This document shows positions 5,594 to 14,633 of a DNA stretch of 49,898 nt, piece after piece. Position 1 is the stretch's first letter, and each line of letters opens with the position of its first letter. The stretch is taken from assembly GCA_003022535.1 (NCBI GenBank), contig PXTT01000055.1, forward strand, positions 3,235 through 53,132, read 5' to 3'. The notes under the pieces are model-generated. The model was not told the DNA's origin. It searched no databases and was given only the letters and a program-made list of their open reading frames with translations. A program made the translations under genes and the position numbers. This DNA is from Bacteroidetes bacterium QS_9_68_14. Lineage in GTDB: Bacteria > Bacteroidota > Rhodothermia > Rhodothermales > Salinibacteraceae.

Positions 5594-6874
<1,281 letters not shown>

Positions 6875-6922: not shown

Positions 6923-7821
6923 TTGATCGTGTCTCGGACGGAAACGAGGTTGTCGCAAGAGGAAGGACATTCGTCGTTTGGCGAAGGGGTGCTGGCGCCG
7001 CTGGCGCCGCTCTTCCGGGAGATCGTCAATCTGAAGCGGGTGCGCCCGGCTCGCACGACTCCTCACAGCTTGGCGGAGCGGCTCTTTCTGCGAAGCTGGG
7101 CGGCGCTGGCGGAGGGCGAAGGGGCTGAGGCCGTGATGCGGCGCGAGGGGGCCGGGGCGCTGGTGGCCACGCGCCTGGCGGGGGTCGACGCGGGCGTCAT
7201 GAAAGAGCACGACCTGCCGCCCGACCGGCAGCGCGACGTGCTTTCGCGCGCCTTCGAGGTCGCCGCCGCGCCCGTCGAGGACGGCCTGGCCGACCGGCTC
7301 GAAGACGCGTTGCTCGAGGGTCCCAGCGATGCCTCAGAAGACGATAAGCGTGAAAGCGACGCCCCGGCCCCCGCTCGCGCGTTGCTCGACCAGCCGCGCG
7401 CCGGCGTCACCTGCCCGGGCAAGGAGCGCCTCGTGCTCGCCCCGCCCGAGAGCCACGCCGACCACTGCGCCGCCGTCGCCGTGATGGCCGCGCTGCTGGC
7501 CCCTGCCGCCGGCGCCGATCCCGCTGAAGCCTTCTTCACGGGGCTCGTGCACCACCTCCACAACGCCACCCTGCCCGATGCGGGCCACGCCGGCGACGTG
7601 CTCCTCGGTGACGCAAAAGACACGCTTACCGGAGCGGCCCGCGAGCGTGCCTTGAAGGCGTTGCCGCCGCCGCTGGCGGGTCGCGCCGAGGCGGCCCTCG
7701 CCCCCGTAGATCGCCCGCCCGAGGGCGAGCGCGCCACGCCGCTGGCGAGGGCCTTCCATGCCGCCGACGCCCTCGACCGCAGCAGGCCGTGCTGGCCGAC
7801 GCCGACGTGGCGGGCTGGTAG
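6923..7821 (+). CDS. HD-domain-like hypothetical protein; 3' end probably frame-shifted
   Basis: HADHCAAVAVMAALLAPAAGADPAEAFFTGLVHHLHNATLPDAGHAGD; the ORF overruns into the next gene, whereas the shifted frame gives QAVLADADVAGW* ending at 7821. Confidence 0.6.
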
Positions 7822-7898
7822 ATGGGGGCTGCCGCGAACAAACGACACAGCAACGCGAAAACGCCCGGGCCGAAGAACCATCCGCCATCCACAGTCAA

Positions 7899-8942
7899 GT
7901 GAGCGAAGTGAACGGACCGTCCACCAACACCCGCTGGGCGCTCGTCGGCTGCGGGTGGGTGGCGCGCGACTTCGTGGCCCCAGCGCTGCGCGCTTCGGGC
8001 AGGACCCGGCTCGCCGCCGCCTGCGACCCCGACCCCGAAGCGCTCGCTACGGTCGCGCCGGAGGGCAGCAGCACCGCGCACTTCGCCGAGCTGGGCGCGC
8101 TCTTGGCGGAAACCGACGTGGACGCCGTCTACGTCGCCACGCCCAACCACACGCATTCCGCTCTCGTGCGGGAAGCCGCCGAGGCGGGCGCCCGGGGCAT
8201 CCTTTGCGAAAAGCCGATGGCGCGCACGCCCGCCGAGGCCGAGGCGATGCTCGCGGCGTGCGAGGAGGCGGGCGCGACCTACGCCACCGCCTTCGACCAG
8301 CGCTTTCACCCGGCGCACCGGCGCCTGCGCGAAATGATTGCCGAAGGCGCGCTGGGCACGGTCACGCAGGTGCGCATCCACTACGCCTGCTGGACGCCGC
8401 CGGAGTGGACGCCTGACCCCGACCACCCGCACGACAACTGGCGCGCCGACCCTCAGCGCGCCGGCGGCGGGGCCTTCCTTGACCTCGCCCCGCACGGCCT
8501 CGACCTCACGCAGATGCTCCTGGGCGAAAAGGTCGCCGAGGCGACCGCATTTTTGCAGCACCGCCGCGTGCACGACTACGACGTGGACGACGCGGCCACG
8601 CTCGCCGGGCGGACCGCGAGCGGCGCGCTCCTCTCGCTCGATGTGGCCTACAACTGCCCCGACGCCTACCCGCGCCGCCGCCTCGAAGTGATCGGCACCG
8701 AGGCGCGTGCTTTCGCCCAGAACACAATGGGCCAGGACGCCGGCGGCACGCTCACGCTGACCCGCCCCGACGGGAGCGAGCAACGCGTGGCCTTCGACCG
8801 AGAGCGCGAGCCCTTCGCCGGCCAGATCGAGGCATTTACGCAAGCCCTCCAGGCGGGCGAGCCGTTCGGCTTTCCTCCCGAGCGCGACCTGCACACGATG
8901 CGGCTCTTGGCGGCGGCCCCCAGCAACGCGACCGTTTCCTGA
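7899..8942 (+). CDS. Gfo/Idh/MocA family oxidoreductase
   Basis: WALVGCGWVARDFVAPAL (Rossmann), DAVYVATPNHTHSALV, GILCEKPMARTPAEAEAM. Confidence 0.93.
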   Translation: MSEVNGPSTNTRWALVGCGWVARDFVAPALRASGRTRLAAACDPDPEALATVAPEGSSTAHFAELGALLAETDVDAVYVATPNHTHSALVREAAEAGARGILCEKPMARTPAEAEAMLAACEEAGATYATAFDQRFHPAHRRLREMIAEGALGTVTQVRIHYACWTPPEWTPDPDHPHDNWRADPQRAGGGAFLDLAPHGLDLTQMLLGEKVAEATAFLQHRRVHDYDVDDAATLAGRTASGALLSLDVAYNCPDAYPRRRLEVIGTEARAFAQNTMGQDAGGTLTLTRPDGSEQRVAFDREREPFAGQIEAFTQALQAGEPFGFPPERDLHTMRLLAAAPSNATVS

Positions 8943-8962: not shown

Positions 8963-11428
8963 ATGCTCACACCCTATTGCTGCACGCGCTGCGGCTTCTG
9001 GCAGCAGCACTTCGCCGAGCCGCCGAGCTGCCCCGTCTGCACCGACCTGCGCCACCCGCTTCCCACGAACGGGTGGGACTTCCGCACGCCCGAGGAGATC
9101 GGGGCCACGGTCGAGACGCGCTGGCGCGAGGTCGGCGACGGCATTTTTCTTTTCGAGAACGAGCCGGCCGTCGGCATCGGGCCGTGCGGGTACCTCGTTC
9201 AGCGGCCCGCGGGCAACGTGGCCTTCGAGGGCGCCAGTTGGTACTCGGGCGCGGCGCTGGATTTCATCGCAGAAAAGGGCGGCGTGGACGCCCTAAGCGC
9301 GTCGCACGCGCATGTCTACGGCGCGCTTTGGCAGCTGGCCCGGCGCTTCCGGCCGGAGATCGTCTTTCAGAAAGACGCGTTGCCGTTCGCGCAGCAGCAC
9401 TTCGGGCAACGCTCCGACCGAATGGGAGGAAGTACTCCTGGGGGGCGCGACGCGCGCTTTCGCAAAAAAGGCGACGGTGAAGGCTACATCCCGCCCGTTT
9501 CGTGGCCCTTCGACGAAACCGCGGAGCTCACCCCCGGCGCGGTGCTGCACCACACCGGCGGCCACACGCCCGGCCACGCCGTGCTGCACCTCGAAGACCA
9601 AGAGGCGCTCTTCTGCGGCGACGCGCTCAAGTTCACCCTCGCCGGCGAGCACGGCCAGCGCCTCGACCCCGACGAAGGCGAGCGCGTTGGGCAGGCGGCA
9701 GGGATCTCCTGCCACACCGCCTTCGACGCGCACCTGCCGCTCTCCTCCGACCAGGTGCGGGGCTACCGCGAGGTCTTCGAGCCGCTGGCCTTCGACCCGG
9801 TGTACACGCCGTGGGAGGTCGTGCAGCCGGGCCAGAACAAGCGCGCCGCGCTGCGCCTCTTCGAGAAGCAGCTTTCGGGCAAGCCCTTCGCCGGCTTCAT
9901 GCCGCTGCAAACGGGAACGGGCGAGCCCGCCGCCGAGACGCCCGCGCCCCTTCGCCGCTACCGGCCCCTGGCCACGCCGGGGGAGCGCGTCTTCGAGTTT
10001 CCCATCACGGAGCTCGACCACACCGGCGTGCCCGTGTGGACGGTTCTCCAATGGCAGCCCGACGGCGAGGCGCTCAGCGGCGTCGGCTACGGGCCGACGG
10101 AGGAGCGCGCCCGCATCGGCGGCTGGGGCGAGATGGCCGAGCAGGTCCTGTGCCACCGCGCGCTCGAGCGCCTGGAGCGCCGCACGGCGAGCTACGCGGA
10201 CTTGGAGAACGAAGGCATCCCGGCGCTGAACCCGCTGAAGCTGCGCCTCCCGGTGACGACCGATTACACGCACGAGCGTGAATTGCAATGGGTCGAGGCC
10301 ACGCGCTGGCGGCCCGGCGACGGGGCGGGCGAGGGCGTCTGGGTGCCCGTCGAAGCGGCGGCCGCGCACTTCTTCGACCTCGGCGAAGGCGGGCCGGCGG
10401 ACCCGCTTTTCACGCCCATCACGAACGGGCTGGGCGCGGGGCCATCGCTCGAACACGCGCTTCAGCACGGGCTGCTGGAGCTCTCGCAGCGCGACGGCAA
10501 CAGCGTGCACTACCGTGCGCTCGACCGCAAGGTCGGCCTCACCCTCGACAGCGTGGCCGACCCGCAGGCGCGCCGCCTCCTCCGCCGCTACGACGAGGCC
10601 GGAATCGACCTGCGCGTGAAGCTCGCCGACGACACGCTCGGCATGACGAACCTCTACGTCGTCGGCGCCGAGCGGGACCCGGAGCGCGCGCCGCACCCCA
10701 TTCAGCTCACCGGTTGCGGGGAGGCCGCCCACCCCGACCGCGAGAAAGCCCTCCGCAAGGCGCTTCTGGAATACGCCGCCTCCCGGGCGCGCAAGCGCTT
10801 CAACCACGGCCCCATCGCGCCGATGCGCGAGCTCCTGCCGGCCGGCTACCTGGAACGTTTTGAGGAAAACCTGCCCTCCGTCGAGGAAAACCGTTCGCTG
10901 GCAGCGATCCGCGAGTGGATGGCCCTCTCGCCGCAGGAGACGATGCAGCGCGTGGCCGACCCGTACCTAAAGGTCGAGACCGAGCGGCGCTTCTCCGCCC
11001 TCCCGAGCGTGGCGCCGGGCTCGCTGGCCACGCCGGAGGCCACGCTGCGCGCCACCGCCGAGCGGATCGAGGAGGCGGGACTGGAGATCTACTTCGTGGA
11101 CTTCACGCCGCCGGAGCGCGAGTGGCCGGGCGACGGCCCACCGCCACATGCGCTGAAGGCCATCGTGCCGGGGCTGGAGGTGGAGACGATGACCTACGAC
11201 CGCGTGGGCCCGCGCAACCTGCGCCGCCTCTTCGCAATGGGCGCCGGCTTCGCCGGCCGCGGCAAGCCACCCAAGGGAGCAGAGCGCGTCCCGATGACGC
11301 CCGAGGACGAAGAGGCGCTCGGCGGCCCGGCGTGGTTCAGCCCCGAAGGCGCCGAGCGGGCGCTGGGCAACTACTACGGCCTCTACCGCGAGCCAGACTT
11401 CCACGTGGCGGCGCTGGCGGGGCGTTGA
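8963..11428 (+). CDS. fusion: N-terminal zinc-knuckle + metallo-beta-lactamase-fold domain, C-terminal YcaO domain
   Basis: N-term CCTRCGFWQ..PPSCPVCTD, SHAHVYGALW, HHTGGHTPGHAVLHLEDQEALFCGDALKF (MBL); C-term PVWTVLQW...GGWGEMAEQVLCHRALERLERR...NGLGAGPSLEHALQHGLLELSQRDGNSVHYRALDR...QLTGCGEAAHPDREKALRKALLEYAASRARKRFNHG (YcaO). Single uninterrupted frame. Confidence 0.85.
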   Translation: MLTPYCCTRCGFWQQHFAEPPSCPVCTDLRHPLPTNGWDFRTPEEIGATVETRWREVGDGIFLFENEPAVGIGPCGYLVQRPAGNVAFEGASWYSGAALDFIAEKGGVDALSASHAHVYGALWQLARRFRPEIVFQKDALPFAQQHFGQRSDRMGGSTPGGRDARFRKKGDGEGYIPPVSWPFDETAELTPGAVLHHTGGHTPGHAVLHLEDQEALFCGDALKFTLAGEHGQRLDPDEGERVGQAAGISCHTAFDAHLPLSSDQVRGYREVFEPLAFDPVYTPWEVVQPGQNKRAALRLFEKQLSGKPFAGFMPLQTGTGEPAAETPAPLRRYRPLATPGERVFEFPITELDHTGVPVWTVLQWQPDGEALSGVGYGPTEERARIGGWGEMAEQVLCHRALERLERRTASYADLENEGIPALNPLKLRLPVTTDYTHERELQWVEATRWRPGDGAGEGVWVPVEAAAAHFFDLGEGGPADPLFTPITNGLGAGPSLEHALQHGLLELSQRDGNSVHYRALDRKVGLTLDSVADPQARRLLRRYDEAGIDLRVKLADDTLGMTNLYVVGAERDPERAPHPIQLTGCGEAAHPDREKALRKALLEYAASRARKRFNHGPIAPMRELLPAGYLERFEENLPSVEENRSLAAIREWMALSPQETMQRVADPYLKVETERRFSALPSVAPGSLATPEATLRATAERIEEAGLEIYFVDFTPPEREWPGDGPPPHALKAIVPGLEVETMTYDRVGPRNLRRLFAMGAGFAGRGKPPKGAERVPMTPEDEEALGGPAWFSPEGAERALGNYYGLYREPDFHVAALAGR

Positions 11429-11552: not shown

Positions 11553-12404
11553 ATGCCTCTGCGATACGCCTACAACACCAACGGCTGCGCGAACCACCGC
11601 CTGGGCGACGCCCTCGCGTTGATCGCCGAGGCCGGCTACGACGGCGTGGCCCTCACGCTCGACCACCACCACTTCGACCCGTTCGCGCCCGACTTCGACC
11701 GCCGCGCGGGCACCCTCGACGCACGCCTGCGCGAGCTGGGCCTCGGCCTCGTCGTGGAGACGGGCGCGCGCTTCCTCCTGAACCCGCGCCAGAAGCACGA
11801 GCCGACGCTGCTGCACCCCGACCCCGACGCCCGCGAGCGGCGGCTCGACTTCCTCACCCGCGCGCTCGACGTGTGCGAAATCTGCGGGGGCGAGGCCGTC
11901 TCGTTCTGGTCGGGAACACCGCAGGAAGGCGTGGCCGAAGGCGACGCCTGGCAACGCCTCACCGACGGCGTAGCGACCGTCGTGGAGCGGGCCGAGGAGC
12001 GCGGCGTCACGGCCGCCTTCGAGCCGGAGCCGGGCCACCTCACTGAGACGGTCGCCAGCTACGAGCGCCTCGCCGACGAGGTGCCCGGCCTCCGCCTCGC
12101 TCTCGACACGGGCCACTGCCTCGTCACCCAGCACGTCGCCCCCAGCGAAGCCGTGCGCCAGCAGGCCGGCCGCCTCGGCACCGTCGCCATTGAAGATATG
12201 CGGCGCGGCGTGCACCGGCACTTGCCCTTCGGCGAAGGTGACATGGACGTGCCCGCCGTGCTACAGGCACTGCGCGAGATCGGCTTCGACCGCCTCGTCT
12301 GCGTCGAGCTCTCCCGCGCCTCCCCCACCGCCCACGAGACGATCCCGCAGTCGCTCGCGTTTCTGAAAGAGGCCGAACGCGAGTTGACGGGCAGCGGGCC
12401 GTAG
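11553..12404 (+). CDS. sugar phosphate isomerase/epimerase-like (xylose isomerase-like TIM barrel)
   Basis: MPLRYAYNTNGCANHRLGDALALIAEAGYDGVALTLDHHH...; AAFEPEPGHL, LRLALDTGHCLVTQH, VAIEDMRRGVHRHLPFGEGDMDVPAVLQALREIGFDRLVCVEL. Confidence 0.88.
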   Translation: MPLRYAYNTNGCANHRLGDALALIAEAGYDGVALTLDHHHFDPFAPDFDRRAGTLDARLRELGLGLVVETGARFLLNPRQKHEPTLLHPDPDARERRLDFLTRALDVCEICGGEAVSFWSGTPQEGVAEGDAWQRLTDGVATVVERAEERGVTAAFEPEPGHLTETVASYERLADEVPGLRLALDTGHCLVTQHVAPSEAVRQQAGRLGTVAIEDMRRGVHRHLPFGEGDMDVPAVLQALREIGFDRLVCVELSRASPTAHETIPQSLAFLKEAERELTGSGP

Positions 12405-12490: not shown

Positions 12491-13726
12491 GTGCGCATCT
12501 GCTTCATCAGCCGCCGCTTCTTCCCCACTGTCAGCGGGATGAGCGTCTACGCGATCAACCTGATCCGTGAGCTCACCGCCCTGGGCCACGACGTGACGAT
12601 GATTTCGCAGTACCGCACCGACGAGAAGGGCAAAGCGATCTACGGCGGCGGCCCGCCCCCCGACGTCGACGGCGTGCGCGTAATCGGCCTCGAGTCGAAG
12701 GGCGAGCAGTCCAGCGGCGACTTCGAGCGCGACATCGACGAGATGGTAGACGTGGCCGCGCAGGAGCACCGCGAGCAAGGCCCCTTCGACGTGGTGCACG
12801 CGCAGTACGGCTACCCGACGGGCCTCGCCGCGCTGATGGCCGCCGAGCAGCTGGGCGTGCCCAGCGTCGTGAGCATCCAGGGCGGGGACGGGCACTGGGT
12901 CGGCGACTGCTGCTCGACGCACCGCGAGGCGATGCTCGCCGTCCTCAGCCACGCCGACGCGCTTTTGATCGGCGCACGCTCCTTTGCGAATGAAGTCACC
13001 GAGCGCCTCGGCACACCGCCGGAGCGCTTCACCATCGTGCCCGGCGCGGTGGACGTGGACCGCTTCCATCCGCCAGAGGACCGGGAGCCCGGCGACCTGC
13101 AGGAGCCGCCTGTCTTTCTCTACCATGGCCGCATCGACGCGCGCAAAGGCGCCCTCGACACGCTCGACGCGTTTCGCGCGTTGCTCGACGAAGGGCACGA
13201 CGCGCGCCTGCGCATGAGCGGCATCGGCCCCGACGCCGACGCCGCACGCGAGAAGATCGACGCGCTGGGGCTTTCGAGCCACGCCGAGATGACCGGCGCG
13301 GCAGACTATGCCGACGCGCCTGCCGTCTACCGCGAGGCCGACGTGTTTCTCAGCCCCACCTACGCGGAGGGCTTCTCCAACACCATCCTCGAAGCGATGG
13401 CCACGGGGCTGCCGGTCGTCAGCTGCCGCGCGGTGGGCGTGGTGGACTGCCTCACCGGCGGCGAGGACGCGCTCCTCACCGAGCCGGGCGACACGGGCGC
13501 GCTCGCCGAGGCGATGCAACGCCTCCTCACTGACGAAGCGGTGCGCCGCCGCCTTGCCCGCGCGGCCCTCGCCGAGGCACGCACCGACTACGCCTGGAGC
13601 ACCCGCGCCGAGCAAATCGCCGCCCTCTACGCCGAGCTCAAAGGCACCGCGCCGGACACGAGCTGGACCGCCCCCGCGATGCCACCGGACGACTGCCGCT
13701 TCCGCGACGAGCCGGCGCTGCTTTGA
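12491..13726 (+). CDS. glycosyltransferase family 4 protein (GTG start)
   Basis: RICFISRRFFPTVSGMSVYAINLIRELTALGHDV..., FLYHGRIDARKGALDTLDAF, SPTYAEGFSNTILEAMATGLPVVS (EX7E). Confidence 0.92.
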   Translation: MRICFISRRFFPTVSGMSVYAINLIRELTALGHDVTMISQYRTDEKGKAIYGGGPPPDVDGVRVIGLESKGEQSSGDFERDIDEMVDVAAQEHREQGPFDVVHAQYGYPTGLAALMAAEQLGVPSVVSIQGGDGHWVGDCCSTHREAMLAVLSHADALLIGARSFANEVTERLGTPPERFTIVPGAVDVDRFHPPEDREPGDLQEPPVFLYHGRIDARKGALDTLDAFRALLDEGHDARLRMSGIGPDADAAREKIDALGLSSHAEMTGAADYADAPAVYREADVFLSPTYAEGFSNTILEAMATGLPVVSCRAVGVVDCLTGGEDALLTEPGDTGALAEAMQRLLTDEAVRRRLARAALAEARTDYAWSTRAEQIAALYAELKGTAPDTSWTAPAMPPDDCRFRDEPALL

Positions 13727-13790: not shown

Positions 13791-14633
13791 ATGCCCCACA
13801 CGTTGTTCCTATCGCCTCACCTCGACGACGTGGCCTTCTCGTGCGGGGGGGCGCTCTTCGCGTTGCTGGCGCAAGGCGGGGACGCGACAGTGGCGACCGT
13901 CTTTACCGCCTCGGTAGCGGAGCCGACGGGCTTTGCGCTCCGGTGCCAGACGGACAAGGGCCTCGCGCCGAGCGTGGATTACATGCGCCTGCGCCGCGCC
14001 GAGGACGAGGCCTTCGCCGAGGCGCTGCGTGCGGCGTTGCCACCGGGGGCAGGCCGGCTGCGGCTGCGCCACGGCCCCTTCGAGGAAGCGCCGCACCGCG
14101 GCTACGAGTCGCCCGAGGCGCTTTTCGCTGGCGTGCGCCCCAGCGACGACGTGGGGCCCAGCGTGCGGACGTGGCTGGCGTCGCTGCTAGGCGAGACGGA
14201 CGCCCCGCTGCTCTTCGCCCCGCAGGCGCTGGGAGGCCACGTGGACCATGTGCACGTCGCACGGGCTGCGCGCGCGCTCCTCCAAGACGCGGGCGAGGCC
14301 CCGCCGGGGGCGTGGTACCGCGACCTGCCGTACGCCCTCCGCGAGCCGGAGGCCACGCCGTGCCGATGGGTGCCCGAGCGCGCCGAGGAGCGCGCCGTTC
14401 CGCTCAGCGAGGCGGCCCGGGAGGCGAAACAGCGGGGCGCGGCGGCCTACAGCTCGCAGCTCGGCTTCCAGTTCGGCGGGGAGAAATCCATGCGCGAGAC
14501 GCTCGCACGATTCGCACGCGAGGAGGGCGCGCGCTTGGGCGCCGGCGGCCCAGCCGAGGCCGTGCGCTGCGACCGGACGGCCGAGCGTGCGCGCCGGGAG
14601 GCGCCGTTAATGCAGTCGTTAACGCAAGGGTAA
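13791..14633 (+). CDS. PIG-L/LmbE-type deacetylase
   Basis: FLSPHLDDVAFSCGGALFAL and GGHVDHVHVARAAR zinc motifs. Confidence 0.9.
   Translation: MPHTLFLSPHLDDVAFSCGGALFALLAQGGDATVATVFTASVAEPTGFALRCQTDKGLAPSVDYMRLRRAEDEAFAEALRAALPPGAGRLRLRHGPFEEAPHRGYESPEALFAGVRPSDDVGPSVRTWLASLLGETDAPLLFAPQALGGHVDHVHVARAARALLQDAGEAPPGAWYRDLPYALREPEATPCRWVPERAEERAVPLSEAAREAKQRGAAAYSSQLGFQFGGEKSMRETLARFAREEGARLGAGGPAEAVRCDRTAERARREAPLMQSLTQG

Follow-up and report, generated by a model that had tools for sequence, protein, structure and literature searches.

A fused MBL-YcaO protein encoded in a conserved bacterial operon of cyclitol and sugar genes

YcaO enzymes use ATP to phosphorylate the oxygen of an amide, and a nucleophile then displaces the phosphate. 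Searches for peptide natural products use them as hooks. The 6-thioguanine YcfA is a YcaO-type enzyme that acts on a small molecule, a nucleobase, instead of a peptide, and is found without a cyclitol operon. To our knowledge, there is no precedent for a YcaO enzyme acting on a carbohydrate. Clusters of ebo genes serve the export of a scytonemin precursor in Nostoc, and sedoheptulose-7-P has been proposed as the substrate of their cyclase EboD (PMC6282210). The open-access literature yielded no description of an operon that combines YcaO with genes of the inositol, cyclitol, dehydroquinate-synthase-like or MBL kind. Both domains of the protein analyzed here are of known kinds, and their pairing and operon were not found described in that literature.

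The window is a stretch of 49,898 nucleotides from Bacteroidetes bacterium QS_9_68_14 (contig PXTT01000055.1). The original prediction placed a zinc knuckle, an MBL-fold region and a YcaO region in one frame of 821 codons, and its coordinates are right (Table 1). A Pfam search with the translated ORF matched PF00753 at residues 108-223 with 30.6 bits (cut-off 22.7) and PF02624 at residues 375-739 with 167 bits (cut-off 25.7). The motifs CxxC...CPVC (C7/C10 and C23/C26), SHAHVYG, GGHTPGH, GDALKF, and ELSQRD are all read in the translation as predicted. An AlphaFold2 model of the fused protein, obtained with a 58-row family alignment as input, shows a mean pLDDT of 92 and a pTM of 0.67. With Foldseek against PDB, one half finds YcaO structures (6PEU, 6PE3, 4V1V, and 6CIB; e-value 6.7e-22 for 6PEU), and the other half finds MBL-fold structures with 2p97 first (e-value 1.5e-8).

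Table 1. Features of the MBL-YcaO operon and of the fused protein (positions in the window).
Feature	Position	Strand	Basis and remarks
MIPS (inositol-1-phosphate synthase), first operon gene	5594..6874	+	PF07994/PF01658
HD_3-type phosphohydrolase gene	6923..7818	+	Homologues in nearly every related operon; start codon uncertain
Gfo/Idh/MocA dehydrogenase	7899..8942	+	PF01408/PF22725; E-K pair conserved
Fused MBL-YcaO protein, 821 aa	8963..11428	+	One ORF, no internal stop
Zinc knuckle CxxC...CPVC, N-terminal	8978..9040	+	Cysteines 98-100% conserved in 72 homologues
MBL half, residues ~1-312	8963..9898	+	PF00753, ligand conservation, fold match to 2p97
Linker between MBL and YcaO	9899..9985	+	Model partly of low confidence, residues 318-325 below 50
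YcaO half, residues ~342-821	9986..11425	+	PF02624, Foldseek, conservation
TIM-barrel sugar isomerase/epimerase-like (AP_endonuc_2)	11553..12404	+	PF01261; homologous to TIM protein of actinobacterial ebo clusters
GT4 glycosyltransferase	12491..13726	+	PF13692/PF00534; EX7E conserved
PIG-L (LmbE-type) deacetylase	13791..14633	+	PF02585, 44 bits; H/DD and HxDH residues conserved

The fusion is not a product of an assembly error joining two genes, because the same fusion is found independently in a relative from the same family and another genus (G013; 780 codons, on a 3.58-Mb contig), in two Hymenobacter loci and in two loci from Verrucomicrobiota MAGs, alongside relatives with split genes. The Hymenobacter and Verrucomicrobiota cases are the fused ones among 80 further loci, drawn from 84,980 species genomes in a wider survey; the remaining loci with an MBL gene keep it as a gene of its own. 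Two relatives (G056 and G217) encode MBL and YcaO as two genes between the same flanking genes as in the window. There and in most phyla, the separate halves usually overlap by 4 nt, and an overlap is observed in 57 of 63 pairs. In one Hymenobacteraceae genome, which shares 82-85% identity with a fused one, there are instead two ORFs that overlap. Mapped on the YcaO tree, fusion takes 4 label changes and a single fused clade is rejected (p-AU 1.6e-68), with the reservation that this is a quick tree with long branches that supports "fused more than once" and no more. Judging from these sequences, the fusion appears to have arisen repeatedly, on more than one branch. It is a minor variant of a more general arrangement, in which a conserved operon carries MBL and YcaO as two translationally coupled genes.

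The order of the operon, based on gene calls and BLAST, is cyclase - HD - (methyltransferase) - Gfo/Idh/MocA - MBL - YcaO - TIM - GT4 - PIG-L. The window and about 65 of the 80 loci show this order, either in full or truncated at a contig end, and it is distributed among eight phyla: Actinomycetota, Pseudomonadota, Bacteroidota, Verrucomicrobiota, Planctomycetota, Myxococcota, Acidobacteriota, and Armatimonadota. The operon is common among the Actinomycetota loci found. Median intergenic gaps range from -4 to +2 nt, with exceptions at fused genes and in operons lacking the methyltransferase. The distribution is patchy (with the YcaO half as marker, 4 of 245 genomes of the class; 1 of 289 genomes in Verrucomicrobiota and 2 of 151 in Hymenobacteraceae), and copies are on plasmids in Hymenobacter volaticus and Roseomonas haemaphysalidis. 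Thus, horizontal spread is suggested. YcaO homologues are also on Methylobacterium plasmids. A methylobamine/UVA compound lead, which came from a match to a Methylobacterium aquaticum plasmid, was dropped; no gene link was found in the literature on it. In one genome, the YcaO gene has moved away from an operon otherwise in the usual order (L084/L124), and in Actinomycetospora, a PIG-L-GT4-TIM block lies ~16 kb away (L125). Another genome has the operon elsewhere (L126), with L063 as its second copy. A second, divergent YcaO follows PIG-L in operons from Verrucomicrobiota and Armatimonadota (L031:13515-15035 and L032:13101-14570). The operon on the R. haemaphysalidis plasmid p546-2 (L112) adjoins two spore photoproduct lyase family genes and partition genes.

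The neighbors had been described as sugar and small-molecule genes and not obvious RiPP genes, and this description agrees with the operon content. Within 1.5 kb of 67 operons, the only short ORFs with wide conservation are the N-terminus of the cyclase and the strand opposite to it. Neighbor clustering, with identities judged by sequence and part of them scanned, revealed no other gene family recurring close beside the operon. No E1-like partner was seen with the fused YcaO or in the operon, and the operon's YcaO is the only one in 14 of 20 sampled genomes.

The operon MIPS is a bona fide family member, and its Sphingomonas orthologue matches the solved MIPS structure 7NWR with 265 bits. The nearest structures to the Gfo orthologue are those of 1,5-anhydrofructose reductase, and the nearest solved ones to the GT4 orthologue are Tll1590 and BshA. 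The PIG-L protein would imply an N-acetyl sugar. Candidate catalytic residues are conserved throughout these other operon enzymes. For the model of the HD protein, Foldseek finds similarity to human HDDC2 and to a predicted phosphohydrolase (probabilities 1.0 and 0.98), with weak e-values. The protein scores near the HD_3 cut-off, and its role as a phosphatase is therefore a guess. In the window, the 3' end of the HD gene shows an out-of-frame deletion of ~100 nt compared with relatives, near 7780: the frame changes after AFHAADALDR (7740-7830), and ~33 codons are gone relative to G013. This is either real decay of the copy or an assembly collapse in the 56%-complete MAG. Thus, at this gene the pathway as present in the window may be in decay or wrongly assembled.

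In 72 MBL homologues, the metal-ligand positions H115, H117, H201, D220, and H251 and the lysine after GD are 100% conserved, and the key residues of the knuckle cysteines, HxH, GGH, GD, the following lysine, and SxH are 98-100% conserved. The HxHxDH motif of dinuclear MBL hydrolases is absent. Its D-H pair is replaced by Y-G, with mostly Y and then always G, while the other ligand positions H, D, and H are kept. Five of what we take, from general knowledge of the fold, to be seven glyoxalase-II-like ligand positions remain, and a mono-metal site would therefore be the simplest reading. The four-cysteine knuckle looks structural. A standalone knuckle-MBL relative of 280 aa, ~32% identical, is encoded in genomes where the operon-type YcaO was not found (L022, L012, and L013; G075 and G076).

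The ATP-site motifs of the YcaO half are GWGEMAE, TNGLGAG, ELSQRD, and CGEAAHPD. In 86 YcaO homologues, conservation is 98-100% for both E of GExxE, for N of TNG, and for R of QRD, and Q of QRD is present in 86 of 86; the typical motif is ExxERD, and MJ1094, MkYcaO, and TruD align with E at this position. SHAHVYG in place of HxHxDH had been called degenerate, and ELSQRD had been read as ExxER-like. Both readings are correct as letters, but decay is not the explanation: HxHxYG and QRD are (nearly) invariant across the homologues and therefore mark a specialised family. The E-to-Q change could mean altered or lost ATP chemistry. The predicted lack of PxPxP at the C-terminus holds, and the ending reads LYREPxxH. 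The fold is closest to the MjYcaO/MkYcaO/LynD group with Foldseek. The scores are 97 bits for TIGR03604 (SagD, TOMM cyclodehydratase; cut-off 219) and 88 bits for TIGR03266 (methan_mark_1, McrA thioamidation; cut-off 365).

YcaO homologues without MBL adjoin sugar-type ABC importer permeases in L024 (an archaeal MAG), L044, L048, L054, L055, L056, and L096. No close MBL was found in these genomes, one of which has two distant matches, and the HD gene is absent from the MBL-less YcaO genomes searched. The permeases, together with the lack of a close MBL or HD, therefore point to a sugar-like substrate. We read these loci as importers of the metabolite or a precursor. The MBL is thus not needed in every setting. 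Some of the standalone loci also carry a polysaccharide-deacetylase-like gene.

A 3-dehydroquinate-synthase-like cyclase (NF004852) replaces MIPS in four loci (L030, L031, L032, and L035; two Verrucomicrobiota, one Armatimonadota, and one Planctomycetota), a small sample that includes close relatives. The TIM gene is absent from all four and present in 51 of 51 tabulated loci with MIPS and GT4. This cyclase is 54-57% identical to the ebo-cluster cyclase of four Rhodothermia genomes (L137-L140), in whose ebo stretches no MIPS or TIM match was found. Relatives of the TIM protein, 46-48% identical, are encoded in Nocardioides and Arthrobacter by ebo clusters with a MIPS-like cyclase (L122 and L123; EboE 400-428 bits, EboA domain 138-141 bits). 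That this exchange recurs in both pathways suggests that MIPS plus TIM yield building blocks equivalent to those from the EboD-type enzyme, or a cyclitol intermediate shared with it. EboA, EboB, EboC, EboE, and EboF are present in L122/L123 and largely in L137-L140. None of them is among the recurrent neighbors of the YcaO operon, and neither YcaO nor MBL was found in the ebo stretches compared. In Arthrobacter, one ebo-cluster protein combines the TIM barrel with an EboA domain as a fusion (L123:7282-8790).

The preferred reading, to which we assign a probability of about 0.6, is that the fused protein is the two-domain form of a knuckle-MBL and YcaO pair in a widespread non-RiPP cyclitol/amino-sugar operon, with YcaO as the activator. 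Since YcaO and MBL sit in such an operon in eight phyla, the protein probably helps to build an undescribed sugar-like metabolite, not a peptide. We infer the step order, the substrate, and the chemistry of both domains as follows. MIPS, or an EboD-type cyclase in some phyla, would make a cyclitol from a sugar phosphate, and the HD protein would remove the phosphate. The Gfo/Idh/MocA and TIM-barrel proteins would oxidise and isomerise the cyclitol, which the optional methyltransferase may cap. GT4 would add a sugar, whose amine PIG-L would free. YcaO with ATP would phosphorylate a carbonyl or amide oxygen of the intermediate for attack by an N, S or O nucleophile. The MBL may be a mono-metal hydrolase beside the YcaO site, releasing the nucleophile, or opening or clearing the intermediate; the gene overlap and repeated fusion suggest that the hydrolase acts where YcaO does, either generating the nucleophile or taking off a group. 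The specific role in nucleophile supply is doubtful, about half as probable as the reading as a whole. The fuller proposal, in which YcaO was recruited to an undescribed cyclitol/amino-sugar pathway with the MBL as hydrolysis partner in the same protein or complex, and bacteria that lack the pathway retain YcaO alone and take up the metabolite from outside, is tentative and falls somewhat short of even odds. Coupled hydrolysis/redox and ATP-dependent chemistry on one substrate had been proposed; hydrolysis with ATP is still the best functional guess, and redox coupling is unsupported apart from the four-cysteine knuckle, which looks structural.

A RiPP maturase forming azoline, thioamide or amidine, with its precursor peptide encoded elsewhere and its product glycosylated by the sugar genes, would be in line with the peptide substrates of most studied YcaO enzymes, with the 97 bits for the SagD model, though far below its cut-off, and with a 2021 study that, for Actinobacteria, reported nothing to indicate YcaO functions outside RiPPs (PMC8442711). 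It is nevertheless unlikely: the operon content is cyclitol/sugar, its flanks within 1.5 kb are without a widely conserved short ORF other than parts of the cyclase locus, the E1-like partner domain and PxPxP are both missing, and MBL-less relatives adjoin sugar-type ABC permeases. The closest structures, MjYcaO and MkYcaO, and the 88 bits for TIGR03266 would instead fit a YcaO that modifies a protein or cofactor, like the McrA thioglycine enzyme, and is co-transcribed with sugar genes by chance. The other enzyme genes, however, are inherited together as one block in different phyla and also on plasmids, and a TfuA-like gene was not noted among recurrent neighbors, so this explanation is highly improbable.

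The operon might also make a UV- or desiccation-protective cyclitol, for example a mycosporine-like or other imine/amidine compound, with YcaO activating a vinylogous amide of the ring. An apparent link to sun-exposed or dry habitats, through hosts such as Geodermatophilus, Hymenobacter, Rubrobacter, Sphingomonas, Roseomonas, and Methylobacterium, the spore photoproduct lyases beside the Roseomonas plasmid copy, and the ebo clusters, which have the same cyclase logic and in Nostoc serve the export of the scytonemin precursor (PMC6282210), all favor it. Against these stand GT4 and PIG-L, which lack a counterpart for MAA, and an ATP-grasp gene, which was not noted in the operon; the chance of this explanation is small. 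A non-catalytic MBL half that serves regulation or metal storage, in a fusion without functional meaning, is likewise improbable. The incomplete HxHxDH and the existence of standalone YcaOs could be explained in this way, but not easily the full conservation of five metal-ligand positions and the lysine in 72 homologues, nor the apparently repeated fusion.

If the preferred reading of a non-RiPP cyclitol/amino-sugar operon is true, a large YcaO branch has been misfiled, and ATP-dependent carbonyl activation reaches sugars or cyclitols. The operon is compact and present in the culturable genera Sphingomonas, Geodermatophilus, Streptomyces, Roseomonas, and Hymenobacter, and is thus directly testable.

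Among known systems, the YcaO enzymes for McrA-glycine thioamidation in methanogens (MJ1094, 6PE3/6PEU; M. kandleri, 6CI7) are the nearest solved structures, alike in the YcaO fold and, by alignment, in the ATP-site layout. The window protein differs from them in QRD instead of ERD, the YREPxxH ending, the fused or coupled MBL, the sugar operon, and a score far below the TIGR03266 cut-off. TOMM/azoline cyclodehydratases (SagD, LynD, and TruD) have the YcaO domain in common, whereas the window YcaO is without an E1-like/RRE partner domain and PxPxP, is below the TIGR03604 cut-off, and has no precursor peptide seen. The MBL half shares the fold and the GGH and GD core motifs with PqsE, Ava_3068 (2p97), and glyoxalase-II-like MBL hydrolases, and is distinguished by HxHxYG instead of HxHxDH and by the N-terminal zinc knuckle. 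Mycothiol/bacillithiol biosynthesis follows a similar logic of inositol phosphate synthase, GT4, and PIG-L (MshA/BshA and MshB/BshB), to which the window operon adds Gfo, TIM, HD, MBL, and YcaO, and a MshC/BshC-type ligase was not noted; membership in it was rejected, as all scores are below equivalog cut-offs (92 vs. 462 bits for MshA, 22 vs. 224 bits for MshB). The ebo metabolite-traffic cluster differs in its EboA, B, C, E, and F and in the lack of YcaO and MBL in the stretches compared, and has in common with the YcaO operon either an EboD-type cyclase or MIPS with a homologous TIM barrel. This swap between EboD and MIPS plus TIM is a handle on the unsolved chemistry of the ebo cluster.
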